Source: Hysterangium stoloniferum (taxonomy: Eukaryota > Basidiomycota > Agaricomycetes > Hysterangiales > Hysterangiaceae). Taken from it: 64,000 nucleotides of DNA. The notes beneath the pieces are model-generated. The model worked only from the letters and a program-made list of their open reading frames with translations, had not been told where the DNA came from and made no database searches. The stretch spans positions 558,001-622,000 of the forward strand of contig WHVD01000007.1 in NCBI GenBank assembly GCA_015178975.1, written 5' to 3'. The translations under genes and the position numbers were made by a program. Position 1 is the stretch's first letter. Each line of letters begins with the position of its first letter. This document shows positions 23,095 through 62,475 of the stretch, piece by piece.

Positions 23095-23099
23095 ATCTG

Positions 23100-23685: not shown

Positions 23686-24184
23686 ATCTGCAAACATATT
23701 CAACTTTCCAGGGATATAGTGAATCTCGAAGTTGGAATTCGTTTAGGAGATCCAGCCACCGTGTCTGCCTTGGAGACAGGTTTTTCTGCGTAAGTATATA
23801 TTCTATCCCTTTATGGTCAGTACATATTCGGAATTTTACCCCCAACAGTTGTGATCGGAATCGTTTCAATGATTCCACAATAGCCAACAACTCCTGTTCG
23901 TGGACAGGGTAGTTCTGTTGTGCCGAATTGAACTTTCCTGACCAGAATGACACTACTGCGGCAGTGCAGAGATCTTCACCTTGGCTGAGAATGCCACTTG
24001 CACCTGTCAAACAAGCGTCTGTCACCAAGTTAATGGTTTGATGACCTCGTGAGTAGTCCAACGCAATTCTATAACTGTCACGATGGGCCTGAACAATACA
24101 CTTGACGTCTTCAAAGGCACGCTGCTCTGTTGCACCCCAATGCCACTGCCTGTTTACTCCTGTCTGCGCTGCTAAAATAGCCAT
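23686..24184 (-). pseudogene. Gypsy RNase H domain
   Basis: Starts with the MAILAAQTG..WHWG block joining RT to RNase H. Catalytic-type residues: D in VTDACLTG, E in HEQELLAIVESL, D in CTDHKGIEY. It stops at the solo LTR. A few residues (PGTEN in relatives) are missing at VEYV/FADALSR, consistent with a deletion between two GAATATGT copies. Out of frame with the RT by a shift at the homopolymer near 24200. Confidence 0.82.
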
Positions 24185-24632
24185 TGGAATTCAAACCCCC
24201 CCCACAGTTGTTAGCGAGATATCCCACTGCCCCCAAAAATCCTGCCAGTAGTTGCTTATTCATCGGAATCTTCCAGTTGCCCACTGTATCGACTTTATGT
24301 GGGTCCATTTTTATACCTTTATCGTTAATGACATGCCCTAACACTGGTAACTCCGAAGCAAACAAGTGCATCTTATTGACCGCGAGGTATACTTTTTCCC
24401 GACGGAGCACAGTAAACACGGTGCGTAGATGCTTGACATGATCACTGATAGCGTCAGAGTATACGACAATATCATCCAAGTATACATCCATGAAGATGCC
24501 AATGTACGGTGCAAAAATGTGGTTCATCAATGTCTGGTAGGTCGACGGACCATTGCAATCCCCTATTTGTAATGTCAGGCTTTCCATAGTGCCATCAGAA
24601 GAGGTGAACAATGTCCAGCGGACACGAGGGGG
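24185..24632 (-). pseudogene. Gypsy reverse transcriptase, 5'-truncated
   Basis: Keeps the part from WTLFTSSDGTMESL to the YLDDIVVYS active-site motif and thumb (LGHVINDKGIKMDP, GFLGAVGYLANN). The fingers, protease, Gag and 5' LTR are missing. The run of eight Gs on the minus strand (24198-24205) shifts the frame before RNase H. The element ends at 24620-24632 in a microhomology with A exon 2. Confidence 0.8.
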
Positions 24633-35113: not shown

Positions 35114-36430
35114 GGGTTGAGGAATGGGTGCGCAAAATGAGATAGCCTTTTATGTACATTGTTGACAAACTAGACGCATTCAGTGCTTAGGAGAGACAAA
35201 TTGTCATGATCCACCGACTATTATTCAAATGCGATGTAGACCCACGGAACCCACATCCAACCTCAGTCCATACTACAGTCATGACGTGGACTGGGGAGTG
35301 GTCTCACTGGATGAGAGCTCATCGCCATCTTCAATTATTGAAATCGAGCCGGGGTATTATTGTAGAGTCGGTTTGGAAAGGGTTGGGAGGAATGTACTTT
35401 ACAACGCAAAGACAGCTGCACTGATGGCAAGTTAACGGTATACAAGCGAATCGTTCATGGAGACGACAAGCCCTTTAACAAGTTCCTACACAAGCATCTC
35501 ACTCTGCCAAGACTCGGAATAGTAATTCAAGAGACCATTGATTTATTGTGGTGGGGATACAATGGCATCAATCATTAAACACACAGGACCTACTTACTCA
35601 ATGTGTATAGACCCATATACCCACACCGAATTCGACAACAGGCGTCAGTGGTCTTAGGGAGGGTCAGGATTTCAGATGATATGTGGCGGAAGGACGGTAA
35701 CAGTGCCATGCTTATGAAATATTTGGCTTGGGCCTTCTACTGGTGTCCCGGCGCTTGATGGGAAGATACAGATCGGTCATCCTGCAATTACGTCATTGCT
35801 TTATAACACTGTAATCAAATCACCGCTACATACCAACCTGAATGAGGTTGCGTCGACGTTTATTCTACAAATCACATGATATTTGCCATGTCATCAATAT
35901 CCCCTCCTCGTTGACGAACTTGTTGTTGAGTAGGAGACAAGAATTCGGAAGGGGAGAGTCTAAATTCGAAGCTCAGTGAGTGAGTGAGTAAACTTCACTA
36001 TATATTATAGTACCTAAATTCGAAGCTATAAGACGTTTTTTAAGTAATAGAATAAGAATAGATGATTGCGCATATACCTCAGTGAGTGAGTGAGTAAACT
36101 TCACTGAGGTATATGGCGAAATATTGCGACTTTTTATTTACTTTCTAATTATTTTAGGAGAGTTATTAGGGGAGTAAAAAGGGGAAATTTTTGATGCTCG
36201 AAGTTTCTAGTCAATTGCATCATTAAGGAGAAATTCGTAATTAGGAGTTACTCCCCCCTTAACGGCACTACAATATATACGCATATATGCGCATATACTC
36301 GTCATCGGATCCATATTTCAGTTACATTTTATGCGAAGACTTGATTACTAACACTTGTGTATATCGTGCAAGTGATCTCCCACGTGAGTCAACTGTCTGT
36401 AGAGGAGCTCGCTGCCATCAGAGGTTGCGG
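35114..36430 (+). pseudogene. Family A copy 11, interrupted by an LTR
   Basis: Starts in the last codons of exon 1 (TGGGTTGAGGAATGG, donor GTGCGC). Exon 2 begins at the CLGETNCHDPPT equivalent and is frameshifted at ATGGCAAGTTAA (about 35425). Exon 3 is split by the solo LTR 35924-36353 and ends at RGC near 36430, fused to A-upstream sequence. Confidence 0.6.
35924..36353. mobile_element. Solo LTR, 430 bp, AT-rich, TSD CTTGT
   Basis: TGTTGAGTAGG..TTACTAACA, flanked by CTTGT at 35919-35923 and 36354-36358 inside A exon 3. Contains two copies of a CAGTGAGTGAGTGAGTAAACTTCACT block; one is bounded by a 14-bp inverted repeat (ATATACCTCAGTGA). Confidence 0.82.
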
Positions 36431-36777
36431 GAGAGCTGGATTTCCCTGAAAGCTAGCACTGAAGAACTCGGAAGGTAGCATATTGCGCGGTGACGGCCTG
36501 TCAATTTATTCTTAGCTGCCATGTGTGTTGTCTGCGGGAGATCATCTGTTGAAATGGAAGGAATATGTGTAAAGAGGGTAAGGTAACTTGAAAATATTTT
36601 GACTTTATTATTCAAGAAGGATAAGTGGCACCTCAAGTTGTTTGCAAGGAAAGGATTGGACGCTGTGTATCCTGAGGAGCACGGCCACGATGCTATTCTT
36701 GGAAATCGACTCTCGGGCTAACTTCAGCTTAAAGGCGCAGCATTCCATCCCGGTCCGAGTACTACTGCTACCCACCA
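36431..36777. promoter_or_regulatory. Family A upstream region
   Basis: Shares the GCTGGATTTC..CTAGCAC..GAAGAACTCGGAAGGTAGCA block with 52920-52990. No gene. Precedes the A start at 36778 by the usual distance. Confidence 0.4.
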
Positions 36778-38975
36778 ATGTCAACGTCCAACGAGATAGC
36801 TCCGAGTGAGCAGGATGCCCTCTCCCTCCTCCAAGAGGTTGACTGGCTAAAATCCTTGGTTTCCCCGGTTGTATTGAGGATCGACGACAGGGGATCGACG
36901 AAACTGGAATGAGGGAAAGACCTCTGATGAAGCTTCGAGGGCGATGTAGCTGTCTCGAACATGGGTCCTGTTTATTTTGCCGAGCATATGACGACGACCA
37001 GCACATAGCACTGTCGGAAGAAGACGTGGAAGGTGGTGTGGAGGAATGGGTGCGCAAACGAAACATCCTTTTGGTGGAGACTGTTCACAGAGCGGATGTT
37101 TTCAGTGCCAAGGAAAGATAAATTGTCATGACCCACCGAATAATATTAAGACACGAGGGAGATCCACCAACGCCACATCCAAACTCAGTCCATATCGTAG
37201 GCATGACATTGACTGGGGACTCGTCTCATTGACTGGGGACTTTGGGAAGAATGTTCTTTATAACGCAAAGACAGCTGCACTGATGACAAAATTAATGATA
37301 TACAAGCGAATGGCGTATGGAGACGATAGGGCCTTTAACAATTTAATGAGAAAGCATCTCACTCTGCGAAGAATCGGAATATTAATTCAAGAGACCATTG
37401 ACTTGATGAGGTGGGGATACTTCAGCGCCAATCATTGAGTACACTCAAAATACTCACCATTCTAGACCCACTTACCCGCGGAAAATTCAACAACAGGCGT
37501 CAGTTGTCTTACAGATGTGCTGGAATTCATATGCTTTTACAGTGGAGGAACGAAGGACAACTTATGACAGAACTGGCTTCGGCCTTCCTCTGGTGTCCCG
37601 GCGCTCGATGGTCAGATGTAGATCGGCCATCAACTGGAATTACATCTTCGCTTTACAATGCTGTCATTGAATCACCGCTACACACAAATGTGAATGAGGC
37701 TGCGTCGGCATTCATTCTACAGATCGCCTGATATTTATCATCCTTGTGTAAACCTACCTCCTTCCTCGCCTTGCTTGGGTATATCGTGGAACAAACTTGC
37801 CACGTGCGTCAACTGTCTGTAGAGGAGATCACTGCGATTAGACGTTGCATTGAATTCTGGGTACAACCGTGCGTCTCGACATCACATCATTTCATCTGGC
37901 CCACCAAACCCACAATAGACAAAATTACTCACATCGACGTTCCTTGTATGTATCTCCTATGGAGCTTCTGGTGTGTTGCATGCACCAAGATGCCTTGTTT
38001 CGAGATATTGCTGGTGATGTATTGAAGGTTATAGTGGACGACGCAAACCTCCTTATAGCGTCTTTGACACTTTGTATCGATGTCAACACGTTAAATTCAC
38101 TGTCGTGTAGTACCATTGCACTAGAAACCTTCTTCCTCGACAGAACGCTTCGCAAGGATCACATACATCAGCTGAATGTGGTTTCTTCGCTCATTGAACC
38201 CCTCCTAAGGTATGTTGACAATGCTTTACCTTCCAGCATCCTCTCATATCCGCCCATGAAAATATCCGATCAGTCCGATTCTGAGACACACGGGTCCAAA
38301 TTCGTGGTTCCTCTTGTCAGAAGAGAGCATAATCGAAATCACCCTGAAGCTGAGAGCTAGATCTTCCGACATCGAATCCGGGTGTACCATAGTGCGCAGC
38401 CTCAATATCATCCCCATTCCCTCTCGTCTTCTTCCACGTTGTGAAGCAATGCGGGGTTCAATCAACGATCAATACCTCGGTCGCTGGAATCCCGTTGTCA
38501 ATGGGATCACTGGTGGTCACACGAGTTGACAGGACCACGGTGTATTGTCTAGAACTGAGACGGGATACAGGAGGTTACAGCGTACGGCAAGGAAAGAGAG
38601 AGAAAACTACCTAGGCTATATACATGTCTGCTGTGGTCACGTGCCAGAACAAAAGGAATGGAACAAGGGGAACAAGAAACAAAGAGTGAACGCATAACAA
38701 AGAGCGAACACATAACGGGAACAATGAGTGAAAGAGTAAGACTGGGGCGCCAGGCTTACAGTCGCTGCCTTAAACGCGTAACTGTCGCGGCCCATTCCTT
38801 CCTTTGTGTCATCGCCACACCTTTCACTGGTGTGTGCGTAACATTTAATTCAAACTGCAGATCAGTGTTGGAGGACCATGATTGGCGTGCCGATGCTCTT
38901 GTTTCATCCATTGCGCCAGCCCAATTTCTCTCGGATAACACCAATACACAATCCGAACCAGGAAGGAGGGATAGT
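36778..38975 (+). pseudogene. Family A copy 12, full span, frameshifts and LTR insertion
   Basis: ATG at 36778 (MSTSNEIAPSEQD). A one-base change near 36885 shifts exon 1. Intron 1 is clear (GTGCGC to TTTTCAG), then CQGKINCHDPPNN. Exon 2 lost the VSSPDSSSS..GLE block around a repeated GACTGGGGAC. Exon 3 about 37472-37945, exon 4 about 37990-38220 with donor position mutated to GACAATG. The last exon is split by the LTR 38485-38760 and is extended past the family stop. Confidence 0.65.
38485..38760. mobile_element. Solo LTR, 276 bp, TSD GTCGC
   Basis: TGGAATCCCGTTG..GGCTTACA between GTCGC at 38480-38484 and 38761-38765, within the last exon of A. Excision restores the paralogous reading. TATA-like CTATATACATG near 38618. 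Confidence 0.85.
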
Positions 38976-39395
38976 ACTACGACGTTTTACTTAACTCGCC
39001 TTTTGGCAATATATCTAATTTATGTAATGCTACATAGTTTGAGCCCATTCAAGACCGCATACGGTGACTCTGTACCGCCTGTGAGTGCTTAGCAGCTTCT
39101 CGTTGATGATAGACACCATTTTCCATACTGGTGGGCACTAGTAGTGGTTAGAATCACGTCCTATTTATGAACGAGAATCACTTCGAATATACTACCACTG
39201 AGAGATCACAAGCAGCATGTCAGGTCGCTGGGATAGATGAAGCAAGTGATTGAAGAGTAGCAAAAGACACCCGTATCAAACATCCACTAATGCATGCCGA
39301 CATTGATCTCGGTCAGATCCATCATCTTCAAAATCTGTGTTCAATTCCCGGATTGGTTATCATAAGGCACAGAACTTGGAACAAAATTAGCGGCC
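38976..39395 (-). pseudogene. Family B tail, minus strand
   Basis: Matches 12007-12440 (poly-leucine and GSQ..LLSDLP-like blocks). Ends at 39395 against an A exon 3 fragment. Confidence 0.5.
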
Positions 39396-40310: not shown

Positions 40311-41435
40311 ATGGCAATAGATGCTCGGAAGCCGAGGAACGTGTTCACCCAGACAAGATGTCTCACTCTATTGATTGTTTTTGGTAATAGGAGTCCAAAG
40401 GCAGCCAGGTGCTCAAAGAGGTTCTGTTTAAATATAAGAAAAGACTTGATCCAATTGAAGACTCATCACTCCAATGGTTTGAAGCGCTGGGAGGAAGAAC
40501 GGCTAGCTTGCTCCAGGCTGTTCCACACGCTCGACCATGTCCACGTGCACATTCTAGATTAAGGGACTTCCCTCCGTGAGCCGCCCGGATCAAATACCAA
40601 TTGACTGATGCTTTTTCTTCTTCAAGACATCTCGTGTCCTTGTTGCTTCTTCCTCTTCATTTTTCTCCCTCAAGAATTGTCCAGCAAAAAATCAACTACA
40701 CTTGTGATCAAAGATATTCAAGTCGCTGTCACATAATATCGGTCATAACCAGGTGTGTCACCCCGAAAGCTTTGTTATCGCTAATTTAGACTGGTTTTCC
40801 ATCAAGTGGTCATGGAATATGGCTTCCTCGAACTTCTCCTGTATCGCTAAGTATCAGTTATACACTATATGGGTCTCAAACGCGCTTTGTGGTGCTCGTT
40901 TGACATTCCTTGCAATATTGGCGATGGTCGTTTTTCTTATGTCGGATCCCATGGGAGCGAGGCGCTCCATCATCGGGTCAAGGTTTCGAATGGAGAGAAA
41001 TACTTAATTGAATCCGCCCAACACCCTCTCAAAGGCCCTTCCTTTTATTCCAGATTTTGTGCCTCATGGCAGCCAATCAGGAGATTAAACATAGATTTTA
41101 AATATTAGGTGAGTCGGACCGAGATAACTGTCGGCATGGATTAGTGAGTTACGGGTGGTGGTTGCTGCTCTTCAATGACTTGCTTCCTGCTATCTCAACT
41201 AACTGATACGCTGCATTCTTTGAAAGCTCCGAGTCGTATTCTATTTGAAGTGATTCTCGTTGATAAATTGGATGTGATTCTAGCCACCACTAACGCCCAC
41301 CAATATATGCAACGTATGTATAGAATCAATGAGAAGCTGCGAAGCACACAAAGTAAAATGTGACTACATGCGCTCTTTAATTTTCTCAAACTATGTAGCT
41401 TTACATAAATTAGAAATATTGCCAAAGGGGAGTTA
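40311..41435 (+). pseudogene. Family B copy, full length
   Basis: ATGGCAATAGATGC at 40311 opens MAIDARKPRNVFTQ; RWEEERLA block; intron-like block with CTGATGC and TTCAAG; KDIQVAVT/NLDWFSIKWSW; SDPMGARRS near 40950; LSQLTDTLHS, SRILFEVILVDKLDVI and INEKLRSTQSK to 41363. A frame change is needed near 40480 (TTTGAAGCGCTGGG). About 95% alike to 61287-62475, inverted. Confidence 0.55.
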
Positions 41436-41439
41436 ACTG

Positions 41440-43405
41440 AAGACTAATAGTCAAGAGCATCTGAAGACCAATCATTATTCTCCAACACGGATCGGGAGCT
41501 TGAATGAGACGTTACGCACAAACCGGTGAAAGGTGTGGCGATGACACAAAGGAAAGAATACAACGCGAGGCAAAATCGTTCAACATCGGCACCGAGGTAT
41601 TGACGGTTGATTGAGCCATGTATTGGGTCACAATGTGGAAGAACACGAGCGAGAATGTTGATCATATTGAGGCTGCGCACTATGGTACACGTGGATTCGA
41701 TGTCGGGAGATGCAGCTATCAGCTTCAGAGTAACCCCGATTATTTTCCTGCCTGAAAAGAGGAGAAAACATGTTTCATTCGTGCGTGTCGTAATCACACT
41801 GGTAGGATATTTGAATGGGCCGATATGAGATTATGCTTGAAGGTCAAACATTGTCAACATACCTTAGGAGGGGTTCAATGAGCGAAGAAACCACATTCAG
41901 CTGGTTGATATTATCCGCGCGAAGTGTGCTGTCGTCGAAGAAGGTTTTTAGGTCGCAGATACGGTGAAAAAGTGAATATGACATGTTGTCATCGAGATGA
42001 AGTGTCAATGTTGCTATATGGAGGCTTGCGTCGTCTAAAATAACCTTCAATGCATCTCCAGCAACACTTCGAAACCAGGAATCTTGGTGGATGTAACACA
42101 TGAGAATCCTTATAGGAGATTCAACCAAGGAAATTCGGTGTGAGTAATTTTGTCTGTTCTTGTTTTGGTGGGCAGGATGCAATAATGTGATGTCGCGACG
42201 CACGGTTTTAACCAGAATTCAATGCAACCTCTGATCGCAGTGAGCTCCACTGCAGACAGTTGACGCACGTGGGAGATGTTTTCCACGATATACCCAAGGC
42301 CAGGGGGTGAGGAGACTTGGATTAGGAGAGGATGATGAATAATTATCAGCGATTTGTACAATGAATGTGGACGCAACCTCATCCACGTTGATGTGTAGCG
42401 GTAATTTGATTACAGCATTGTAAAGCGATGATGTAATTGTAGTTGATCGCTGATCTACATCTGGCCATCCAGCGCCGGGACACCAGAGGAAGGCCCAAGC
42501 CAAATGTACCATAAGCTCGGCCGTGTGAACTGCGTTTCTCCGCTTTAGAAGACTTGAAAAACAGATCCGTTGTAAGATCCCCCACTGCTCTAAGACCCTC
42601 CACGCCTGTTGTCGGATTCGAAAGGGATAGGTGGGTCTAGAATGACATGAGTATGTTGAGTGTAATCAATGATTGACGTTGTTATATCCCTACTTCATCA
42701 AATCAATGATCTCTTGAATTACTATTCCCAGTCTTGGCAAAGTGAGATACTTCTGTAGACACTTGTTAAAGCTCTTGGTCCTTCCATATCCATACGCTAT
42801 TGCCTCGTATATCGTCAACTTTGCCATCAGTGAAGCTGTCTGTGCGCTGTAAAGCACTTTCATCCCAATCCTGTCCATGCCAACTCCTAGGTAATACCCG
42901 GGGCTAATTTCAACACTTGAAGACGAGCTATCAGCCCGTGAAACCACTCCCCAGCCAAGGTTATGATGACTGCGATATAGGCTCATGTTCGATGTCGTGT
43001 TGGTGGATCTACTTCGCGCTTTAATAATATTCGGTGGGTCATGACAATGTGCTTCTCCTAGGCACTGAAAGCGTCCAATTTGTCAACAGTGTACATAAAA
43101 GACTATTGTATTGTGCGCACCCATTCCTCAACCCAAACTTCCACGTCTTCTTCAGATAGTGGTATATGCTCGTCGTCTTCGGGACCTCGATAACACACAC
43201 CATGCCCATCTTCGATACAGTTCCATCGGTCTCGAAGCTTTACCCGGAATCTTTGCCTTCTCACCGCTTCAAATCTCTCTTCCCGTTCTTCTGCGCTCCA
43301 TGCAGCTGGGGAGACCAAGGGTTGTAACCACTGAACTTCTTGTAGGAGGCTTTCAGCCCGTACGACATCGTTGCTGCTCAGAGTCCTCTCGTTTGAAGTC
43401 GACAT
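41440..43405 (-). pseudogene. Family A copy 14, full span, one frameshift seen
   Basis: ATG at 43405 (MSTSNERTLSSND), Cys/His block CIEDGHGVCYR, donor GTGCGC. Exon 2 about 43063-42690 with donor GTAGGG, exon 3 from about 42637. An extra base near 42305 (CTCCTCACCCCCTGGCC) shifts exon 3 after the NPSLLT block. Exon 4 donor region reads GACAATG. Last exon 41797-41444, with stop TAG. Inverted match to 59302-61286. Confidence 0.65.
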
Positions 43406-44084
43406 TGGTGGGTAGCAGGTGGTTGTGATACCGGAAGGGAATGCTGCGCTTTTAAGTTACAGTTATGAAGGGAATATATTTCAAGGTATCGCATTGTGGC
43501 GGTGCTTTGTACAGGATACCCAGCTATTCATCCCTTCCTTTTACACAACCTCAAACCTCAACCTCCTTCATTCATACATGCTCCAGGATTGTCTCAAGTT
43601 CTCTCACTATGGTATACACCAATTCCTTGGTCTTCAACAGATTATCTACGGCAGAGAGCAGATGTGGCAGTTATGAATAGTTCGATGAACCTTCACCGCA
43701 TATTGTGGCAACTTCCGACTTCTCGAGCGCTAGAGTTTTGGGAATTAATCTCTTACATTACTTGAGAAATGACATGTCAATTGATGGAATATTTAAATGC
43801 AGTGGATGCTATCCATGACAGAGATACAGCCCCGCCCCTCCGGCTATATTTAGCGGAAGCATCCGCTTCGTGTTCAATTCTTTCAGAATTCCAACGAGCA
43901 TCCCATTTTAATAATTCTTTAATTGGGCTAATTGGCGTAGAAAGTAAATATGCCTGTTTGTGGCGAGTCCGCCAAATTTTCATTAACAAATTGTGCATGT
44001 AATCTATATTCAGTCAGAATTAAGTACACGCTAGAATTAGTATTACCCGGTCCTTGTGAGCGGAGTAATGGGGAACCCCTCATG
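43406..44084. promoter_or_regulatory. Shared upstream region A14/B
   Basis: Conserved with 58600-59301 (inverted). No gene. Contains the AGGTATCGCATTGTGGCGGTGCTTTGTACAGG block. Confidence 0.4.
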
Positions 44085-44507
44085 ATTAAATGGTATCATG
44101 GTTTTGCTCCTCATTTCCCGTCCTGGACCGGCAAGGTTCATGATGAAAACATCATATGTAATATCCTGCCCGTGTGACTTATCGTGGCATTTTCATGTTT
44201 CTACCTATTTTTGTTAATATATTGTGTAAAGAGGACATATTTTTTAATGCTTTAAAACTTGCTTATGTATGTGTATTAGTACATGATTAACTTGATTATT
44301 ATATGCAAGTTCAGAAGCTGACAGCTGGGTATCTCACTTGACGTGCCTGGCCGGCATTTTGTACATATATCTTTGTCAATTAAAGAGTGGCTGGGAATCT
44401 AACCTGGAGTATAGTCATTTTAAACCCACGTGATGAGGCCAACGAACCTTAGATACATACTAACAGAATTCTGAATCGCCAGGAATCGTGCAAAGGTGGG
44501 TTGAGAG
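44085..44507. repeat. Module X and B leader
   Basis: CATGGTTTTGCTCC, ATATATTGTGTAAAG, GACAGCTGGGTATCTCA blocks, then AACCTTAGATACATAC leader. Confidence 0.5.
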
Positions 44508-45480
44508 ATGGAAAAACGTGCTCGGACGCTGAAAACCGTATTCACCTCGATAATGGCGACATCATGTTTCATTAAGTTGCCTGTTTGTGGTAATAGCAGC
44601 ACCAATCCAGCCAGGTGCTCAAAAGGGTTCCGTTTAAATAAAAGGAAAGACTTGTCCGAATTGAAGACTCATCACTACAATGGTTTCAGGGGCTCGGAGG
44701 AAGAACGGCTATCTGGGATGTTCTAGGCTGTTCCAGACGCTACACCATGTCCAGGGGCGCATTCTCGATTACGGGGCCTTCCTTCCGTGAATAGCCCGAA
44801 TCAAATACCAATTTACTGATGCTCCATCTTCTTCAAGACATTCCGTGTCCTTGGGGCTTCTTCCTCTTCGTTTTCCTCCTTCACGCCGCGGTCACAGAAT
44901 GTCGGGGATATACAGGTGTGTCACACGGTAAACTTCCTACACCTAATTTAGACCCGTTTGCCATCAAGTGGTCATTCAAGTGGTCACGGCCTCTGGCTTC
45001 CTCGCACGTCTTCCTGTATCGCTACGCATAAGGTATACCTTATAGCGCTCTTACAAGTGCTTTTGATGCTGGTTGACCTTTTTTGCAATATTCGCCTTGT
45101 CTTTGTCCTCAAATCTGATCCCATGGGAGCGAGGCGCTCCAGCATCGAGGGGATGTTTCGAATGGAGGGAAATACTTAATAGAATGCTCCCAACGCAGTC
45201 GCTGTACGTTTTAAAGCCTCCTCTTTGCATTCCAGAGGTTGTGCCCCACGATATCCAATCAGGAGATTGAACATAGATTTTGAAGATTACGTGAATCTGA
45301 CCCCTCGGCATGGATTAGTGAGCTGCGGGTGTTGCTTTCTGGTATTCAATGACTTTATTCATGCTATGCCAACTAACTGATACGCTGCTTTCTGTGAAAC
45401 GTCTGAGGGTGATATCAACGTGCGTATAGCATCAACGAGAAGCTTCCAGGCACACAAAGGCGGGAAAAAGTGACTATAGA
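44508..45480 (+). pseudogene. Family B copy
   Basis: MEKRARTLKTVFTSIMAT start, CSKGFRLNKRKDLSELKTHHYNGF, LLQDIPCPW, KWSRPLASSHVFLYRYA, SDPMGARRSSIEG, then a tail deleted before INEKL. Shares the N-terminal half with 58075-58497 (inverted); the palindrome arm ends near 44935. Confidence 0.5.
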
Positions 45481-48575: not shown

Positions 48576-49732
48576 TTCTCTTTGTAACACCGACACAATT
48601 TATACCACTCTGGAGCATGTATAGCAGTATTTCTCTTGACGTAACTCGCCTTTTGTAAATATTTACAGGTAATTTAAAGTTACATATTTTGAGCCAATTT
48701 AAGAGCGCATATAGCCACTTTGTACCGCCATACGCATGTAGAATAATATTTGGAGCCTTTGGCGTGGCTAGAATCCCCTCGGATTTATGAACGACAACGA
48801 GTCCACATAGAATAGCACTGATAATTCTCAGAAGACAGCCCCATTACCGTGATTTTCGTTTCACTTAGTTGGGATCGCATGAAGAAGTTCATGAAGAAAA
48901 GCAAAGAAGACCCACAACAATCACTCACTAATCCATGGTAACGGTTATCTCGGTCAGACTCATCTAATCTTTAAAGTCTATCCTCAATCTCGGGATCAGC
49001 TATCACGAGGCACAAAAAGAGGAGCCATCAGAACGTACAGGGATGCGTTGATAGGATGCCATTAAATATTTCTCTCCAATCGAAACGTTCCCATGGGATT
49101 CAAGTTTAAAACCCGACAGTCTTGACTATTGCACTGAGAGTCAAACGAGCACCCGGCGGCGCTTTTGAGAGGGGTATAATGTATAACTTATGCTTGGCGA
49201 TACAGGAGAAGTGCGAGGAATCTAGATGCCATGACCACCTGATAGAAAACGGTTCTAAATTAGATACAACAATGCCTGTCGGATGGCACACCCGCATTTG
49301 ACCGATATTCTGTGACCATGGCTTGAATATATTTGATGACAAGTGGAGTTGATTGGTTGTCCGAAATTTCTTGAGGGAGGGAAATGAAGAGGATGACGCA
49401 CCAAGGACACCGGATGTCTTAAAGAAGGTGAAGCATCTGTAAATTGGTATTCGATCCGGACAGTTCACACGGAGAAGTCCCGGCAATCTAGAGTCTGCCC
49501 GAACTGGAATACCTTGGAGCATCCCAGATAGCCGGACTGCCTCACAGCATTTAAACCCATTTTACTCATGAGTTTTTAATTTGACCAACAGTTTTATTTT
49601 ATTTAAACGGAAGGTTTTAGAGCACCTGCCTGGATTCGTGCTCCGAGTATCGCAAAGAAGGGCCAGAGTGACACATGTTGTCGCTATTATCCGGGAAAAT
49701 ATGTCCCGCGGCGTCTGCGCACCTTGTGCCAT
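48576..49732 (-). pseudogene. Family B copy, minus strand
   Basis: Start ATGGCACAAGGTGCGC at 49732. A 139-codon open stretch 49522-49106 spans GLLRVNCPDRIPIY, GVLGASSSSFPSLKKFRTTNQLHLSS, VSNLEPFSIRWSWHLDSSHFSCIAKHKLYI. Tail damaged between 48650 and 49080. Inverted match to 27353-27795. Confidence 0.5.
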
Positions 49733-50202
49733 CTCTAACCGACCATGTCACGAGTTCTGGCGATCAAGAGTTCTTGTCATTATGTCTCTAATTCTTTTAG
49801 GCGTCATCAGGTCGGAGTCGGGTGACTATCGTCCAGGTTATCATTACGGGAGACATAAGGTTCATAGCGTGAAGTGTCCCCACCACTCTCACTTTGGATC
49901 CTACCTTTGTGGACTCATATATCGGTGCCGCAGACTTTGATTTCCACACTTTACCGCTCGGAGCCTTTTGCTTTCCATACGGGCTTTACCCGTGTTAGTT
50001 GATGCAAATTGCTGTACTTAGAAGGGCGGTGTAATAATAGTAGCATGTAATTAGTTACCACTGAATATAGATTACGCGCACAATTTTTTAATGAAGAGCT
50101 GTGGCATTCCCAATAAACAGGCATATTCACGATGGACGCCAATTAACCTAAGTAAAGAATCATCGGAATTGGAATTCGGAAAGAATTGAACACGAAGGGC
50201 AT
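49733..50202. promoter_or_regulatory. Leader Y plus A upstream region (empty LTR site)
   Basis: Uninterrupted version of 26491-27352. Both leader Y and the GTAATAATAGTAGCATG..TAGATTACGCGCAC block are present. No gene. Confidence 0.45.
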
Positions 50203-50354
50203 ATGTCACTTATCCCCCTGGAATTCGAAAAAAAGGCGTCCGTCGTTTGTATGAGCTTGTGGGATTCACAGGAACGAAGGTCACACTGCCAAGCTGATGG
50301 TTGGGCCTTCATTTGGTGTCCCGGCGCTCGATGGTCAGATGTAGATCGGCCATC
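50203..50354 (+). pseudogene. Family A exon 3 fragment
   Basis: SQERRSHCQADGWAFIWCPGARW equivalent, ending at GGCCATCAAG fused to the B tail. Confidence 0.6.
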
Positions 50355-50712
50355 AAGTGATTGTAACGGGTATTTTTTTGCTGTTCTTCAATGACTTACT
50401 TTATGCTATCCCAACTAACTAATACATTGCTTTCTTTGACACCTTCGACTGGTATTCTATTTGAGGTGATTCTCGTTGATATATCGGATTTGATTATAGC
50501 CACTACCACGGCCGACGAATATATGCAACGTGTATATAGCATCAACGAGAAGTTCCCAAGCACACAAAGGCGGAAAGGGGTGACTATATGCGCTCTTTAA
50601 ATGTCTCAAACTATGTCGCTTTACATAAATTAGAAATATTTCTAAAACGCCAGAGTAATATTACTATCCCTCCTCTTGGTTCGGATAATGTGTCAGTGTT
50701 GGCCAACAGAAA
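50355..50712 (+). pseudogene. Family B tail
   Basis: LSQLTNTLLSLTP, ILFEVILVDISDLI, YSINEKFPSTQRRKG, then LNVSNYVALHKLEIF. It continues open into sequence antisense to the last exon of the intact A gene (to about 50851). Confidence 0.5.
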
Positions 50713-52653
50713 TTATGAAATATCGGACGGAATGGATGGTGCAATAGAATTGGCAGACCAGCCATGGTCCTCCAACACTGATCTGGAGTTTGAATTAGAT
50801 GTTATGCACACATCGGTGAAAGGTGTGGCGATGACACAAAGGAAGGACTGAGCCACGAGGGTTAATGCTTCAAGCCGGGAAACGAGGTATTTATCGTTGA
50901 GCGAGCCACGCATTGTGTCACAATGTGGGATAAGACGAGGGAGAATGGTAATTATATCCACGTTGCGCACTGTGCTACACGCGGATTCGATGTCGGAAGA
51001 TCCAGCGATCAGGTTCAGAGTGACCTCAATTAGGTTTTCTCCTGACGAGAGGATGATCACATTTGGACGTGGGTGTGTCAGAATCAAACTGGTATGATAT
51101 TTTCAAGGGCGGATATTAGATGATGCTGGAAGGTAAACCACTCTCAACATACCGTAGGAGGGGCTCAATGAGTGAATGGACCACATTCAGTTGTTTGATG
51201 TGATGCGTGTGAAGCGTGCTGTTGCCGAAGAAGGTTTTCAGCTCCGAGATACCATACAACAATGAATACGTTGTGACCATATCCATAATAAGAGTCAAGG
51301 ACGCTATATGGTGGTTTGTGTCAGCCACTATAACCTTCAATACATCTCCAGCAATATCTCGAAACCATGAATCTTCGTGCATGCAACACCCCAGAAGCGG
51401 TATAGGAGATCCAAACAATGAACGTCGATGTGAGTAATTGTGTCTGTTGTGGTTTTGGTAGGCCAGATGAAATGATGTGATGTCGCGACGCACGCTTGTA
51501 CCCAGAATTCAATGCAACCTCTAATCGCAGTGAGCTCCTCTACAGACAGTTGGCGCACGTGGCAAGTTTGTTCCACGATATCCCCAAGCTCGGCGAGGAG
51601 GAAGGTACGTGAATGGCATGGGCATGATAAATATCCGGCGATTTGTAGAATGAATGCCGATGCAACCTCATTCAGGTGGGTGTGTAGCGGTGATTTGATG
51701 ACAGCATTGTAAAGCGATGACGTAATTGCAGTGGATGGCCGATCTCTATCTTCCCATCGAGCGCCGGGACACCAGTAGAAGGCATAAGCCAAATATGCCA
51801 TAAAGTTGGCAGTGTCACCTTCTTTCCTCCGCCGTATAACACTTGAACCCCAGAACAGCTCTGAGACAAGTGACGCCTGTTGTCGAATTTGACGCGGGTA
51901 AGTGGGTCTATAATGATGAGTATTTTGAGTGTATTCAATGATTGGCGCTGAAGCATCCCCACCTCATTAAGTCGATGGTCTCTTGAATTACTATTCCTAT
52001 TCTTCTCAGAGTGAGATGCTTGCGTATTAACTTTTTAAAGGCCCTGTCGTGTCCGTGCACCATTCGCTTGTATACCATCAACTTTGCCATCAGTGCAGCT
52101 GTCTTTGCGTTGTGCAGCACAGTCCTCCCAACCGTTTCCAAACCGACTCCACAGTAATACCCGGGGTTAATTTCCAGACTCGATGATGAGCTATCTGGCG
52201 ATGAGCCAACTCCCCAGTCTATGGCACGCCTACGATATGGGCTGATTTTGGATGTGGCGTTGGTAGAGCTCTCTCGAATCTGAATATTATTTGGTGCGTC
52301 ATGATAATTTTTCTCTCCTTGGAACTGAAATCATTCGCTCTGTGAACAGTCTCCTTAAAAATGATTTTTCGTTTGCGCACCCATTCCTCCACACCAACTT
52401 CCACGTCTTCTTCCGACAGTTCTATGTGCTGGTCGTCATCATGTTCTCGGTAACATAAACAGTGTCCATGTCCGAGACAGCTACATCGCTTTCGAAGCTT
52501 CATCCGGGATATTTCCCTCTTTCCCGTGTCATCAATCTCCTGTCGCTCCATCCTCAATACAGCCGGGGAAACCAAGGGTTGTAGCCAGTCAACCTCTTGA
52601 AGGAGGGATAGGACATCCTGCCCACTCGGAGCTATCTCGTTGGAAGTTGACAT
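50713..52653 (-). CDS. Family A copy 19, intact five-exon gene, function unknown (561 aa)
   Basis: Model: exon 1 52653-52381, exon 2 52324-51963, exon 3 51907-51417, exon 4 51372-51142, exon 5 51041-50713. Coding total 1686 nt, in frame, no stops. Introns are 56, 55, 44 and 100 nt, all GT-AG (GTGCGC..TCAG, GTGGGG..ATAG, GTTTGG..GAAG, GTGGTT..TCAG), phases 0, 2, 1, 1. Features by order: start MSTSNEIAPSGQD, helical LLQEVDWLQPLVSP, Cys/His cluster CSCLGHGHCLCYR, acidic DDDQHIELSEEDVE, Ser-rich SPDSSSSS, WCPGARWEDRDRP, SVEELTAIRGCIEF, WFRDIAGDVLKVI, CVIATPFTDVCI near the end. No signal peptide, membrane helix or known catalytic motif. Soluble protein inferred. Overlaps the converging B tail. Intron 4 is the least certain. 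Confidence 0.65.
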
Positions 52654-53344
52654 TGGTGGGTAGCAGCCGTACTCGTACCGAGAGGCAATGCTGCGCTTTT
52701 GAAGCTGAAGTTAGCCCGAGAGTCGGTTTCCAGGCATAGCATCGTGGCCGTGCTCCACAGGATACACACCGTTTAATCCTTTCTTTGTAACCAACTTGAA
52801 GTCCTACTTATCCTTCTTGAATAATGCAGCCAGAATATTCTCAAGTTACCTTACCATCTTTGTACATATTCTTTCTACTTCATCAGATCATCTCCCGCAG
52901 AAAACACACATGGCAGCTGAGAATAAATTGACGGGCCGTCACCGCGCATTGTGCTACCTTCCGAGTTCTTGAGCGCTAGATTTCAGGGCAATCCAGCTTT
53001 CCCGCCAGAAGTGACATCCACGGATAGAATATGTCAGTGCGGTGGATGCTATCCATGGCAGTGCTTATTAGGTACAGCCCCAGGCGCTTTCGACTCCGGC
53101 TATATCTAACGGAAATCTGCGCTTCGTGTTCAATTCTTTCATAATGGCAACGAGCAATCCATTACAACAATTCACTACTGATGCTAATGGGCGTCAACCC
53201 TGAATATCCTTCTTTGTGGCGACTCCGTCAGGTTTTTATCAACACCTTGTGCGCGTAATCAATATTCAGTGACTATTACTTACCCGCTAGTCTTATTATT
53301 ATCCTGACCTTCTCAGTGAACTAATTCGCCCCAGGATCACCTTA
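52654..53344. promoter_or_regulatory. Upstream region of the intact A gene
   Basis: No gene. Conserved blocks shared with 1666-1970, 36431-36777 and 57054-57590 (GGCAGCTGAGAATAAATTGACGGGC, CTTGAGCGCTAG). No B start is attached: an A fragment follows. Confidence 0.45.
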
Positions 53345-53650
53345 TTTATCAACCACTTTGAGAGGTCGCGACGCATGGTTGTATCTAGATTTCAATGCAG
53401 CCTCTGATCACAGTGAGCTCCACTGCAAATAGTTGACGCACGTGGTAGATGTTTTCTACAATACCCAGAAGGTCACGGAGGAGGAAGGGAGGCTGAGTAC
53501 ATGATGATGATAAATATCTCGCAATTTGTAGATTCAATGTCGACGCAACCTCATCCACGTTGGTGTGTAGCGGTGATTTTATGACAGCATTGTAAAGCGG
53601 TGACCTAATTGCAGTTGATGCCCGATCTGTATCTTCCCATTGAGCGCATC
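53345..53650 (-). pseudogene. Family A exon 3 fragment
   Basis: From the WEDTDRASTAIRS equivalent to VELTVIRGCIEI and the CVATS edge; cut at both ends. Similar to 45960-46170. Confidence 0.55.
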
Positions 53651-54489: not shown

Positions 54490-55149
54490 TAGATTTATAC
54501 CTAATTTAGACCCGTTTGCTATCAAGTGGTCATGGCCTCTGGCTTCCTCGCACGGCTTCCTGTATCGCTACCCATAAGGTATACCTTATAGCGCTCTCAT
54601 AAGTGCTTTTGGATGCTGGTTGACCCTTTTTGCAATATTCGCCTTGTCTTTGTCCTCAAATCTGATCCCATGGGAGCGAGGCGCTCCAGCATCGAGGGGA
54701 GATTTCGAATGGAGGGAAATACTTAATAGAATGCGCCCAGCCGAGTCGCTGTACGTTTTCAAGGTTCCTCCTTGCATTCCAGCAGTTGTGCCCCATGATA
54801 GCCAATCAGGAGATTGAACATAGAGTTTTAAGATTAGGTGAATCTGACCGAGATAACCGTCGACATGGATTAGTGAGTTGCGCTGCGTTCTGTGAAACCT
54901 TTGAGGGTGATATCACCGTGCGTATAGCATCAACGAGAAGCTTCCAGGCACACAAAGGCGGTCAAAAGTGACTATATGCACTGTGGAATTGGTTCATACT
55001 ATGTAGTTTTACATAAATGAGAAATATCGCCACAAGGCGAGTGAAGGAAAGAGTAATAGTACTATCCTTCCTCCTCGTTCGGAGAGTGTATCAGTGCTAT
55101 CCAAGAGACATAATGCGTGCGGAATGGATGGAACAATAGCATCAGCACG
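54490..55149 (+). pseudogene. Family B tail
   Basis: NLDPFAIKWSWPLASSH block, SDPMGARRSSIEGRF..EGNT, then a deletion joining to the GDITVRIASTR/INEK region. Same deletion as in 44508-45480. Converges on A copy 21. Confidence 0.5.
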
Positions 55150-57053
55150 CTATTCATGGTCCTCCAACACTAATCTGGATGTTGAATTAGATGGTACGCA
55201 CAGACCGGTGAAAGGTGTGGCGATGACACAAAGGAAGGAATGAGCCGCGACAGTTACTCGTTCAAGGGAAGCACCGAGATTTTCATCGGTGATTGAGCCA
55301 CGCATTGCGTCACAAAGTGGAAGAAGACGGGCGAGAATGGGGATGTTATTGAGGTTGCACACTGTGGTACACGCGGAATTGATGTCATAAGATGCAGCTA
55401 TCAGCTTCAGAGTGACCTCGATTAGTCGTTTGCCTAACCACAGAAACGACGAATTTGGACACATGTGTGTCAGAATCAGACTGGTAGGATATTGTGATGG
55501 GGAGGATATGAGATGATGCTGGAAGGTAAAACAATATCAACACACCTTAGGAGGGGCTCATTGAGCGAGGAAACCACATTCAGCTGGTTGATATGATCTA
55601 GGAAGAGTGTGCTGTCATCGAAAAAGGTTTCTAGGGAAAATATATCGCGCCACAGTGAATGTGACGTGTTCTCATCGATGTGAAATGTCAAGGACGCTAT
55701 AACTAGGTTTATGTCGTCCACTACAACTTTCAGTACATCACCAGCAATATTTCGAAACCAGGTATCTTGGTGGATGCAGCACACGAGAAGCTGTATAGGA
55801 GATTCATAGAAGGAAAGTCGGTGTGAGTAATTTTGTTTGTTGTGGTTTTGGTGAGCAGGACAAAAGGATGTGATGTTGGGACGCACGGTTGTACCCAGAA
55901 TTCAATGAAGCCTCTGATCGCAGTGAGCTCCACTACAGACAGTTGACGCACGTGAGAAGTCATGTCCACGATAACCGCAAGGTGCTTAAGGAGGAAGGGA
56001 GGTGGATTGCAGGGGGATGACAAATATCGGGCGATTTGAAGAATAAATGTCGATTAAATCTCATTAACGTTCGTGTGTAGCGGTGATTTTATGACAGCAT
56101 TGTAAGGTGAAGACGTAATTGAAGCTGATCGCCGATCTACATCCGACGATCGAGCGCCGGGACGCCAGAGGAAGGCCGAACCCAAAGGTACTATCAGTTT
56201 GTCAGTGTCTCCTCCCTTCCTCCGCTGTATAAGACTTGAACTATAGAACCCCCCTAATACCACCGATGCCTGTTGTCGAATTCGGAGTGGGTATATAGGT
56301 CTACAAGCATTGACTAAGTATGTTCGGTGTTTAATGATTGCCATGTTGTAGTCCTACCTCATCAAATCAATGCTCTCTTGAATGACTATTACTAGTATTT
56401 TCAGCATAATATACCTTTGTAGAAGCTTGTTAAAGCCCTTGTCGTCTCCGTATCCACGCGCCATTCGCTTGTATAGCGTCAACTTTGTCGTCAGCGAAAC
56501 CTTCTTTGCGTTGAACAGCACTTTCATTCCAATCCTTTCCAAACCGACTCCTAAGAAATATCCTGGGGCAATTTTAATACTTGAATATGAGCTATCAGGA
56601 AGTGAGCCCCCTCCCCAGCCGATATTACGGCTCTGATATGCACCGAGATATGATGTCGTGTTGGTGGACCCCCTCGCATCTTAATAATTGTCGGGGGGTC
56701 ATGACAATTTCTCTCTCCTTGGCACTGAAAGCATGAGGTTTATCAAGTGTGTATGTGAGGAGCATATTTTATTTTGCACACCCATTCTTCCACCCAAACT
56801 TCCACGTCTTCTTTAGACAGTAGTATGTGCTCGTCGTCTTCAGGTGCTCGGTAACATAAACCTTGCCCATGCTCCAGACAGGCCCATCGTTCTCGAAGTT
56901 TCATCTCGAATCTTTCCCTCATTCTCGTTTCATTGATATCTGTCGTTCTACCCTCAATATAGCCGGTGAAACCAAGGGTTGTAGCCACTCAACCCCTTGT
57001 AGGAGTGGTATTATATGTTGCCTGTTCAGAGTTATCTCGTTGAAAGTTGACAT
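55150..57053 (-). pseudogene. Family A copy 21, full span, frameshifted
   Basis: ATG at 57053 (MSTFNEITLNRQ). Exon 1 frameshifts after SPAI (near 56955) and recovers as MRERFEMKLRERWACLEHGQGLCYR. Exon 2 56700-56360 includes MERIGMKVLFNAKKVSL. Exon 3 starts near 56300 with WRPGARS in place of WCPGARW; exon 4 and last exon 55464-55150 open. Stop TAG-like after VLEDHE. Confidence 0.62.
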
Positions 57054-57590
57054 TGATGATAGGAGTCATGCTCATCCCGGAAGGGAATGCTGCCCTTTTG
57101 AGGTGCAGTTAGCCGGAGAGTCAATGTTCAGCCATAGCTTTGAGGCTGTGCTCCTACAGGATACCCACTGTTCCATCGTTTCCTATTAAATGACTTGAAG
57201 GCCCACTCGTCCTTTTCCAAAAATACACCCAGGATACTCTCAAGTTACTTTAAGACTTTTTACCGATATTCCTGAACTTCATTAGATTGCATACTGAAGA
57301 CAACACATGTGGCAGCTGGGAATTCATTGACAAGCTGTCAACGCATAATGTGGTAACTTCTCAGTTCTTGAGCGCTGGATTTCAGGCCAATCCAGCTTTC
57401 CCATGATTTCAGACGTGACATATCGATGGATAGAATGTGTAAATAGAGGAGATGCCATCCATGGGCAGTGCTTATCAGGTACAGCCTCAGGCGCTTCGTT
57501 TCAGCATTCCAACGAGGAACCCATTTTAATAATTCCTTAATTATACTAATTGCGGTCACACCTGAATATCACGTTGTGTTTTTCCTTTTC
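57054..57590. promoter_or_regulatory. Family A upstream region
   Basis: Same landmark blocks as other A upstream regions (GCAGCTGGGAATTCATTGACAAGC, CTTGAGCGCTGG); no gene. Confidence 0.4.
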
Positions 57591-58497: not shown

Positions 58498-59301
58498 CTC
58501 TCACCGACCTTTGTACGATTCCTGGCGATTCAGAATTCTGTTAGTATGTATCTCAGATTCGTTGGCCTCATCACGTGGGTTTGAAATAACTATACTCCAG
58601 GTTAGATACCCGTCAATCATGAGGGGTTCCCCATTACTCCGCTCACAAGGACCGGGTAATACTAATTCTAGCGTGTACTTAATTATGACTGAATATAGAT
58701 TACATGCACAATTTGTTAATGAAAACCTGACGGACTCGCGACAAACAGGCATATTTACTTTCTATGCCAATTATTCCAAGTAAAGAATTATTAAATTGTG
58801 ATGCTCGTTGGAATTCTGAAAGAATTGAACACGCGGATGCTTCCGCTAAATATAGCCGGAGTGGCGGGGCTGTACCTGAGAAGCGCTGTCATGGATAGCA
58901 TCCACTGCATTTAAATATTCTATCAATTGACATGTCACTTCTCAAGTAACGTAAGAGATTAATTCCCAAAACTCTAACGCTCGAGAAGTCGGAAGTTCCC
59001 ACATTATGCGGTGAAGGTTCATCGAACTATTCATGACTGCCATAACTGCTCTCTGCCTTAGACAATCTGTTGAAGACCAAGGAATTGGTGTATGCCATAG
59101 TGAGAGAACTTGAGACAATCCTGGAGCATGTATGAATGAAAAAGGTTGAGGTGTGAGGTTGTGTAAAAGGAAGGGATGAATAGCTGGGTATCCTGTACAA
59201 AGCACCGCCACAATGCGATACCTTGAAATTTATTCCGTTGATAACTGTAACTTAAAAGCGCAGCATGCCCTTCCGGTATCACAACCACCTGCTACCCACC
59301 A
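58498..59301. promoter_or_regulatory. B leader and shared upstream region
   Basis: Inverted match to 43406-44507 with module X deleted except a short GTTCCCCATTAC block. No gene. Confidence 0.4.
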
Positions 59302-61286
59302 ATGTCGACTTCAAACGAGAGGACTCTGAGCAGCAACGATGTCGTACGGGCTGAAAGCCTCCTACAAGAAGTTGAGTGGCTACAACCCTTGGTCTCCCCA
59401 GCTGCATTGAGCGCAGAAGAACGGGAGGAGATATTTGAAGCGGTGAGAAGGGAAAGATTCCGGGAAACGCTTCGAGACCGATGGAGCTGTATCGAACATG
59501 GGCACGGTCTGTGTTATCGAGGTCCCGAAGACGACGAGCATATACCACTGTCTTAAGAAGACGTGGAAGTTTGGGTTGAGGAATGGGTGCGCAAAATAAA
59601 ATAGCCTTTCATGTACACTGTTGACAAACTGGACGCTTTTAGTGCCTAAGAGAGGCACATTGTCAAGACCCACCGACTATTATTAGAATGCGAGGTAGAT
59701 CCACTAACACGACATCGAACATGAGTCCATGTCGCAGTCATAATAACATCGACTGGGGAGTGGTTTCACTGGCCGATAGCTCGTCTTCAAGTGTTAAAAT
59801 TAGCCCCGGGTAATACCTAGGAGTTGGCATGGACAGGATTGGGATGGGCGTGCTTCACAGCGCACAGAGAGCTTCGCTGATGGCAAAGTTGATGATATAC
59901 GAGGGAATAGCCCGTGGATATGGAAGCAACAAGGCCTTTAACAAGTGTCTACAGAAGTATCTCACTCTGCCAAGACTGGGAATGGTAATTCAAGAGACCA
60001 TCGATTTGATGAAGTAGGGATACAACCGCGTCAACCATTGATTACTCAACATACTCACGTCTTTCTAGCCCCACCTATCCCCTTCGAATTAGACAACAGG
60101 CGTGGGTGGTCTTACTGGAGTGGTCGTCCTTATACTGGATATGGTATTCAAGTGGTATGCAGGGGACAAACGGAGATCACACTGCCAAACTTATGACATT
60201 TTTGGCTTGGGCCTTCCTCTGCTGTCCCGGCGCTCGATGGTCAGATGTAGATCGGCGATCAACTTCAATTACGTCTTCCCTTTACAAGGCTGTCATCAGA
60301 TCACCACTACACACCAACGTGCGTGGATGAGGCTGCGTCCACATTCATTGTACAAATCGCCAAATATCTTTCATCATCTTTTCCTTCCCCAATTTTCCTC
60401 ACCAGTGGCCTTTGGAAAATCGTGGAACACATCTCCCACGTGCGTCAACTGTCTGCAGTGGAGCTCGCTGCGATCAGAGTTTACATTGAATTCTGGTTAA
60501 AACCGTGCGTCGCGATATCACATCATTGCATCCTGCCCACCAAAACCAGAACAGACAAAATTACTCACCCCGAATTTCCTTGTTTGAATCTCCTATAAGG
60601 ATTCTCGTGTGTTCCATCCACCAAGATTCCTGGTTTCGAAATATTGCTGGAGATGCATTGAAGGTTATTTTAGACGACGCAAGCCTCCATATAGCAACAT
60701 TGACACTTCATATCGATTGGGAAACGTCATGTTCACTTTCGAAACGTATCAGAGACCTAGAAACCTTCTTTGACGATGGCACGCTTCGCACGGATCATAT
60801 CAACCAGCTGAATGTGGTTTCTTCGCTCATTGAACCCCTCCTAAGGTATGTTGACAATGTTTGACCTTCAAGCATAATCTCATATCCGCCCATTCAAATA
60901 TCTTACCAGTCTGATTATGACACACACGAGTGAAACATTTCTTCTCCTCTTTTCAGGGAAGAAAAATAATCGAGGTTACTCTGAAGCTGATAGCTGCGTC
61001 TCCCGACATCGAATCTGCGTGTACCATAGTGCGCAGCCTCAATATAATCGACATTCTCGCTCGTCTTCTTCCACATTGTGACCCAATGCATGGCTCAATC
61101 AACGGTCGATACTTCGTTGCCGACGTTGAACAATTTTACCTCGTGTCGCATTCCTTCCTTTGTGTCATCGCCACACCTTTCACCGGTGTGTGCGTAGCGT
61201 ATCATTCAAGCTCCCGATCCGTGTTGGAGAATCATGGTTGGTCTTCCGATGCTCTTGTTCCATCCAATACGCACAACATATCATAA
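59302..61286 (+). pseudogene. Family A copy 22, full span, two nonsense codons
   Basis: ATG 59302 (MSTSNERTLSSND). TAA replaces a Glu codon after EHIPLS (59554-59556), and GGGTAATAC replaces GGGTATTAC in exon 2 (59811-59819). Exon 3 about 60070-60590 has CCPGARW, a small CGTG duplication near 60322 and a frame change; exon 4 60640-60870; last exon 60958-61286. Exon 4 donor reads GACAATG. Closest relative: 41440-43405. Confidence 0.65.
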
Positions 61287-62475
61287 TTTCTCCTTGGTAA
61301 CACCGACACATTATCCACCCAGGAGGAAGGATACTACTATTAGTCTTCAGTTAACTCCCCTTTGGCAATATTTCTAACTTATGTAAAGCTACATAGTTTG
61401 AGCAAGTTAAAGAGCGCATGTTGTCACTTTTACTTTTTGTGCTTCGCAGTTTCTCTTTGATTCTATACATACGCTGCATATATTGGTGGGCGTTAGTGGT
61501 GGCTAGAATCACATACAATTTATCAACGAGAATCACTTCAAATAGAATACGACTCGGAGCTTTCAAAGAAAGCAGCATATCAGTTAGTTGAGATAGCATG
61601 TAGCAAGTCATCGAAGAGCGGTAACCAACACCCGCAACTCACCAATCCATGCCGACAGTTATCTCGGTCCGATTCACCTACTATTCAAAATCTATGTTCA
61701 ATCTCCTGATTGGCTACCATGAGGCACAAAATCTGGAATAAAAGGAAGGACCTTTGAAAGGGAGTTGGGAGGATTCAATTAAGTACTTTGCTCCATTCGA
61801 AACCTTGACCCAATGATGGAGCGCCTCGCTCCCATGGGATCCGACTTGAGAAAGACGACCATCGCGAATATTGCAAGGAAGGTAAAAGGAGCACCACAAA
61901 GCACGTTTGAGACCCATATAGTGTATAACTGATACTTAGCGATACAGGAGAAGTTCGAGAAAGCCAGATTCCATGACCACTTGATGGCAACCGGTCTAAG
62001 TTAGCAATAACAAAGCTTTCAGGGTGATACATCTGGTTATGACCGATATTATGTGACAGCGACTTGAATATCTTTCATCACAAGTGTAGTTCATTTTTTT
62101 CTGGACAATTCGTGAGGGAGAAAAATGAACAGGAAGAAGCACCAAAGACACGAGATATCTTGGAGAAGACAAACCATCAGTCAATTGGTATTTGATCCGG
62201 GTGGCTCATGGAGGGAAGTCCCCTTAATCTAGAATACGCACGTGGACATGGTCCAGCGTGTGGAACAGCCTGGAGCAAGATAGCCGTTCTTCCTCCCAGC
62301 GCTTCAAACCATTGGAGTGATGAGTCTTCAATTGGATCAAGTCTTTTCTTATATTTCTACGGAACCTCTTTGAGCACCTGGCTGCCTTTGGACTCCTATT
62401 ACCACAAACAATCAAGAGAGAGAGACATCTTGTCTGGGTGAACACGTTCCTCGGCTTCCGCGCATCTATTGCCAT
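61287..62475 (-). pseudogene. Family B copy, full length, minus strand
   Basis: ATGGCAATAGATGC at 62475 (MAIDARKPRNVFTQTRCLSLL). Same blocks and order as 40311-41435; tail YRIKEKLRSTKSK near 61430. Frames interrupted near 62290 and 61900. Confidence 0.55.

Follow-up and report, generated by a model that had tools for sequence, protein, structure and literature searches.

Multigene families that evolve by birth and death form clusters of open and broken members whose proteins change fast. Gene-bearing macrosatellites are best known from human chromosomes. RS447 (4.7 kb, with a deubiquitinase ORF) and D4Z4 (3.3 kb, with the DUX4 ORF) are described in PMC3018141 as tandem arrays of several-kb monomers with one protein-coding ORF each. 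Transposon-amplified housekeeping genes occur in fungi as well; for Pseudocercospora fijiensis, PMC6710886 describes a histone H3 gene captured by a hAT element and present in hundreds of mostly inactivated copies. A literature search joining 'basidiomycete' and 'macrosatellite' found no paper, and the titles among the matches listed for 'macrosatellite' and 'fungi' were human or general, except for Candida glabrata.

The window, meaning the whole stretch of 64,000 nucleotides analysed here, comprises bases 558001-622000 of contig C522 (1,614,086 bp) in the Hysterangium stoloniferum assembly (111.1 Mb, 554 contigs). A preliminary description had pointed to one intact five-exon gene amid about 20 dead paralogues, a count that is roughly right, as 29 chains were found in the window, seven of them full length including the focal copy. 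It did not recognise the copies as monomers of a broken tandem array, nor the clusters of related genes elsewhere in the genome. The open focal frame is real but expected; the array is the finding. We interpret the focal gene as a surviving open monomer of a decayed gene-bearing fungal macrosatellite (probability about 0.7), and the array is best read, by analogy, as a fungal counterpart of D4Z4 and RS447.

The array shares with the two human examples its tandem monomers of several kilobases (here 4.17 kb) with one gene each. Unlike in those examples, the gene contains four introns. The array itself is old and rearranged and exceeds theirs in length (the matches listed extend over about 1.2 Mb); the clusters of related genes on other contigs have different flanks, and the protein matches no modelled family. 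The likeness to the P. fijiensis histone H3 gene lies in hundreds of mostly inactivated gene copies in a fungal genome, but here no transposase and no strong inverted ends were found, tandem junctions are present, and there is a modest CpG transition excess rather than mass C-to-T change. Clusters of open and broken members with fast protein change are seen here as in birth-and-death families, although here some 2 kb of further sequence within the monomer was copied along with the gene, and dead copies dominate (28 of 33).

Monomer and array anatomy

Self-comparison revealed a repeat across most of the window. The monomer, about 4.17 kb long with one five-exon gene in each, spans the 3' side of the gene, the gene itself and about 1 kb past its 5' side, and the end of one unit is followed by the start of the next. 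Tiles based on the 4174-bp reference (U41, Table 1) and three companion references account for 74.6% of the window and, in the 21 fetched loci, for 44.6-92.6%. Over the window and these loci, 140 near-adjacent tile junctions were scored, comprising 20 end-to-start wraps, 33 collinear junctions, 62 same-strand jumps and 25 inversions. The wraps pass from the unit end (about 4174) to the unit start with gaps of 0-51 nt, and the wrap lies inside another fifteen tiles, two of which are reference pieces. Several wraps are flanked by long tiles reaching into the gene (e.g. at loci L017 and L024) and therefore represent a tandem repeat, not a short terminal repeat. Wraps were found in more than one subfamily; because of segmental duplication, they do not count as 20 independent events.

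The units thus once stood in head-to-tail order, which inversions and jumps later scrambled, the array having been broken by inversions, deletions and transposons. A long intact tandem order is a reconstruction, with most junctions now rearranged. In this one genome we found three features of a macrosatellite, namely a monomer of several kilobases, head-to-tail order (the 20 wraps and 15 wrap-crossing tiles) and a protein-coding ORF, with the same five-exon gene in all 33 full-length copies. The transition rate is 0.157 at CpG sites against 0.096 at C sites and 0.118 at G sites. Positions 50016-50207 and 53112-53317 were considered as terminal inverted repeats and rejected, as they belong to a neighbouring monomer in opposite orientation. 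An isolated 1,3-beta-glucan synthase fragment (FKS1_dom1, 6.7e-20) lies on the minus strand at 18458-18913 of the window; this fragment and the pol of the Ty3-type element look fungal, of an Agaricomycete kind.

Table 1. Focal gene, array elements and other full-length copies in the window (frame-shifting indels and stops are relative to the focal copy).
Feature	Positions	Strand	Remarks
Exon 1	52381-52653	-	273 nt; carries C-x4-H-x2-C-x8-H
Exon 2	51963-52324	-	362 nt
Exon 3	51494-51907	-	414 nt; WCPGARW block inside
Exon 4	51153-51443	-	291 nt; between conserved GTGCGT..AACAG and GTATGT..ACCAG introns
Exon 5 including stop	50713-51088	-	376 nt; CVIATPF block inside
Focal gene-bearing part of monomer	50356-53358	-	unit coordinates about 80-3043
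Adjoining monomer piece, opposite orientation	48727-50207	-	unit 2796-4440; crosses wrap
Fragment of another copy adjoining the focal one	53359-53647	-	exon 3 and first part of intron 3
Reference monomer U41	41060-45233	+	4174 bp; holds full-length copy 41162-44069
Next head-to-tail monomer start after wrap	45242-45407	+	unit 1-174
Full-length copy	2119-5017	-	4 frame-shifting indels
Full-length copy (second open copy of the preliminary description)	9641-12347	+	3 frame-shifting indels
Full-length copy, focal subfamily	36427-39282	+	3 frame-shifting indels, 1 stop
Full-length copy within U41	41162-44069	gene on minus strand	2 frame-shifting indels
Full-length copy	54910-57496	-	2 frame-shifting indels, 2 stops, intron-3 acceptor AA
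Full-length copy	58633-61617	+	2 frame-shifting indels, 2 stops; wrap at 61726
Ty3/Gypsy-type element inserted in array	20368-24635	-	RVT_1, RNase H and integrase frames

The junctions also bear on an origin of the family by transposition, in which a DNA transposon or Helitron would have scattered the gene, either as cargo or as its own coding part, and the arrays would be nested insertions, as for the hAT-captured histone H3 gene. We consider this origin unlikely, although a high copy number, a single place on 21 of 50 contigs among the matches listed, and the retained introns, which point to DNA-level copying, all agree with it, and such a class is described in fungi (PMC6710886). One copy (L032) is moreover joined to a Pif1-helicase-like frame below the curated cut-off, and the gene at L034 lies between the arms of one weak inverted pair (23 nt, 74%, 4 kb apart). 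However, monomers repeatedly join end to start, and the inverted-repeat search, covering three loci, gave no strong repeats at monomer ends, the best pair being 28 nt at 71% with one arm inside. Neither the gene nor the five ORFs of the unit on contig C162 contain a transposase domain; no transposase or Rep/helicase was found in the unit, the helicase-like frame adjoining only the L032 copy. Homology between the distant loci and the monomer is also largely limited to the gene.

Gene structure and protein

The preliminary description had reported an open spliced five-exon frame across 50713-52653, and this is confirmed on the minus strand from the ATG at 52653 to the TAA at 50713. Its 1686-nt model stands for introns 1 and 2, which use the conserved junctions, whereas introns 3 and 4 were misplaced. 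To find the conserved junctions, we aligned 33 full-length copies and compared distant relatives. The full-length copies are all those of 158 chains that span 52560-50850; seven lie in the window and 26 in 20 of the 21 fetched loci. Intron 3 occupies 51493-51444 (GTGCGT..CAACAG) and intron 4 occupies 51152-51089 (GTATGT..ACCAG) in the aligned copies and distant relatives. As the junctions of the distant members settle intron placement, the focal gene is modelled as a frame of 1716 nt and 571 aa in five exons, which is still open. Enumeration of GT-AG introns of 40-130 nt gave two open 1686-nt, five-exon models with a 231-nt exon 4, and the earlier model evidently had introns 52380-52325, 51962-51908, 51416-51373 and 51141-51042. 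Exon 4 was accordingly given as 231 nt where the conserved junctions give 291 nt, and the supposed lesion of other copies, GACAATG in place of a GT donor, arose because the intron-4 donor was read 11 nt too far downstream, inside the conserved intron. Our own first gene model (565 aa, intron-1 donor at 52398) was rejected as well, since that donor is not conserved in the aligned copies or distant members.

All eight splice dinucleotides are present in 28 of the 33 full-length copies, including the focal one, and the retention of four introns is not what a processed retrocopy would display. The intron-1 donor is GTGCGC in the focal copy and in 26 of 33 array copies. Seven of eight distant members have GTGAGT (GTGACT in L036), and L033, looked at separately, has GTGCGC. 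L031, L034 and L035 share the GTGAGT intron 1, the same intron 2, a GTGCGT..AACAG intron 3 and a GTATGT or GTACGT..AG intron 4; by eye, CTGAC precedes the intron-3 acceptor in L031 and L034.

The protein had been placed in no known family, and this agrees with our searches. The 565-aa model, its exon pieces and relatives gave no Pfam-A or NCBIfam match above cut-off, and a search of PDB sequences with the 571-aa protein at E up to 10 yielded no match. Two weak Pfam matches (0.078 and 0.32), both below their cut-offs, came from pieces of L034. The Cys/His cluster, reported as conserved across most copies, is better given as C-x4-H-x2-C-x8-H, and it occurs in 20 of 32 array copies (one too-short copy excluded) and in 10 of 10 distant loci. 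It may be a metal site, although the 565-aa model and the motif-bearing exon pieces had no Pfam match of the kind expected for a classical zinc finger. From sequence features, we tentatively infer that the protein is intracellular and mostly helical and has a small Cys/His site towards the N-terminus; it might act by binding rather than as an enzyme. By the look of the sequence, it may be an ARM/HEAT-like helical repeat (alpha-solenoid) protein.

Neutral decay and older constraint

The close subfamily comprises 21 copies; loci L009-L028 were chosen by similarity to the focal exon 3, a choice that favours its subfamily. Changes confined to single copies number 230 replacement, 93 silent and 10 nonsense, which gives a dN/dS equivalent of 0.94 under the observed transition bias and nonsense changes at 0.72 of expectation. 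The density of such changes is 0.194 in coding and 0.203 in noncoding sequence. Copy-specific indels show no sign of frame protection, as 26 of 36 coding and 10 of 18 noncoding ones are not multiples of three (Fisher P 0.24). The close copies have thus changed neutrally since amplification.

Lesions, that is frame-shifting indels and stops scored against the focal frame, total 45 in the 21 copies (mean 2.14). Four copies are lesion-free, the focal one by construction of the score, against 2.5 expected (Poisson P of 4 or more = 0.23). When each copy is spliced in its own frame, five of the 33 full-length copies are strictly open, only one of the seven in the window. Besides the focal copy these are the close copies L012, L019 and L024 and the diverged copy L015. 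Codon 540 or beyond is reached in six of the 33, the sixth (L021) ending 15 codons early. The six pairs among the four open close copies have omega values of 0.897-1.041, none different from 1.

Given the near-neutral changes and how many copies are free of lesions, the focal copy has probably survived decay by chance and is probably not a working gene. That selection has kept it open as a working gene among dead copies is improbable, although its frame is fully open with all splice dinucleotides and, among the 21 close copies, it shows the fewest coding changes of its own (4 N, 3 S). These few private changes fit a young copy; its intron-1 donor is weak, four other copies are open as well, and both the omega values of the open close pairs and the Poisson fit point the other way. 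The presence of a repeat family is beyond chance, and an unusually intact copy within it is not. The preliminary description had regarded the focal copy as intact and as one of two open copies, and had taken a dN/dS near 1 between them as evidence against its view. In the six pairs of open close copies the ratio is indeed near 1, though its second copy (10123-12006) is not open, having a stop at codon 114 as well as three frame-shifting indels.

Older divergence was partly constrained. Compared with the focal copy, five diverged full-length copies show differences at 368-413 coding sites, for which about 15-17 stops over both branches are predicted from the 4% nonsense share of the close subfamily. 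The stops in the focal frame number two in each of the copies starting at 58633 and 54910, and none in those starting at 2119 and 9641 or in the one at L028 (L028_5929). These five copies carry 2-4 frame-shifting indels each. So few stops are far below neutral divergence; the family therefore diverged while its members were still coding, and decay of the C522 copies came afterwards, in support of the multicopy gene of coding ancestry that had been proposed. In comparisons across subfamilies and with distant members, omega ranges over 0.61-1.18 (highest for L034-L038, 1.18). Values below 1 with 2dlnL >3.84 were obtained for 8 of 14 pairs and for 2 of 3 deep ones, these pairs not being independent.

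Spliced at the aligned junctions, two of eight distant members are open (L031 and L041, both on C162). L038 extends to codon 574 but lacks an ATG, and stops are met in L034 (codon 21), L035 (243), L036 (292), L039 (176) and L040 (372). Broken copies thus also occur in clusters outside C522 (C257 and C524). L031 and L041 differ by 126 coding substitutions with no stop against 6.7 expected, an outcome seen in 0 of 5000 simulations of their divergence. Divergence is 7.4% at coding and 7.6% at flank sites; the two coding indels are 9 nt each, whereas 16 of the 18 indels in the flanks have lengths not divisible by three. Their omega is 0.92, which is not below 1. On C162 the frames are guarded and the amino acids are not, as judged from these two copies, one of which was chosen from a list favouring open exon 1-2 frames. 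Such copies, with frames kept and amino acids free to change, offer a testable entry to the role of the protein.

Distribution across the genome

A conserved 28-mer was found at 404 genome places with up to three mismatches (reversed control, 0). With up to one mismatch, a variant of it was found at 92 places and a different 26-mer at 130. The exon 1-2 protein of L034 gave 2145 first-look candidates, and all 150 that were scored were matches. Pooling 100 places of the 28-mer, the new ones of its variant, the 150 protein matches and 10 of 100 places of the 26-mer gave at least 280 places on at least 50 contigs, 21 of them with one place among the matches listed. The pooled counts are lower bounds, and the figures for C522, C8, C106 and C149 are too low. 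Most places among the matches listed lie on C522, C388, C8, C524, C367, C257 and C157. On C522 the matches listed extend from 15 kb to 1.21 Mb, and one broad cluster of about 0.27-1.2 Mb each was seen among them on C522, C157, C257, C388 and C524.

Neighbouring places on C162, C528, C362, C174 and C237 are 9.4-11.5 kb apart, and the exon 1-2 frame is free of stops in 16 of 17 matches there. These regularly spaced copies are possibly younger tandem arrays of the same family. The related genes cluster on several other contigs, and the examined loci share the gene and little of the monomer flanks. As the C162 unit has little in common with the C522 monomer beyond the gene, amplification probably happened more than once. 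If the macrosatellite reading is right, arrays would arise repeatedly by unequal exchange around working copies and then fall silent and decay, and working copies would sit in younger arrays such as that on C162, where the two examined copies keep their frames while their amino acids change fast. With clusters seemingly differing in age in one genome, the amplification, silencing and decay of one gene become traceable. A bolder version, to which we give a small chance, is that several macrosatellite arrays, differing in their flanks and spread over many chromosomes, were each seeded independently by one fungal gene family; working copies that keep their frames while amino acids change at the neutral rate would then fit the pattern of a selfish or arms-race gene (e.g. 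in nuclear competition or spore killing), and dead arrays would form chromosome-scale heterochromatic blocks.

That the clusters are centromeric or pericentromeric DNA with a gene-derived monomer as structural satellite is doubtful: the single broad clusters and the transposon inside the window's array agree with it, but the C522 and C257 clusters reach a contig start, C528 carries two groups about 335 kb apart and 21 contigs carry one place (both among the matches listed), GC content in the window is even (0.43-0.50), and predicted Ganoderma centromeres span 30-210 kb (PMC10817607).

Three further links were considered and rejected. A linkage of the spacing of about 10 kb to rDNA found no Rfam match in 12 sources (C162 represented only by L031). 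A viral or prokaryotic origin found no relative of the exon-3 query among 23 viral and 46 prokaryotic pattern-matched stretches. A telomere link met one interstitial TTAGGG run only, and this sole run of six units in the assembly (C112:544633-544668) is internal to its contig.

At L032 2763-3593, the gene copy runs in frame into other sequence and then into the Pif1-helicase-like frame (3436-3897), which is suggestive of a Helitron fragment. Finally, the starts of C522 and C106 show a like order and like variants of repeat places, which suggests allelic or duplicated blocks.
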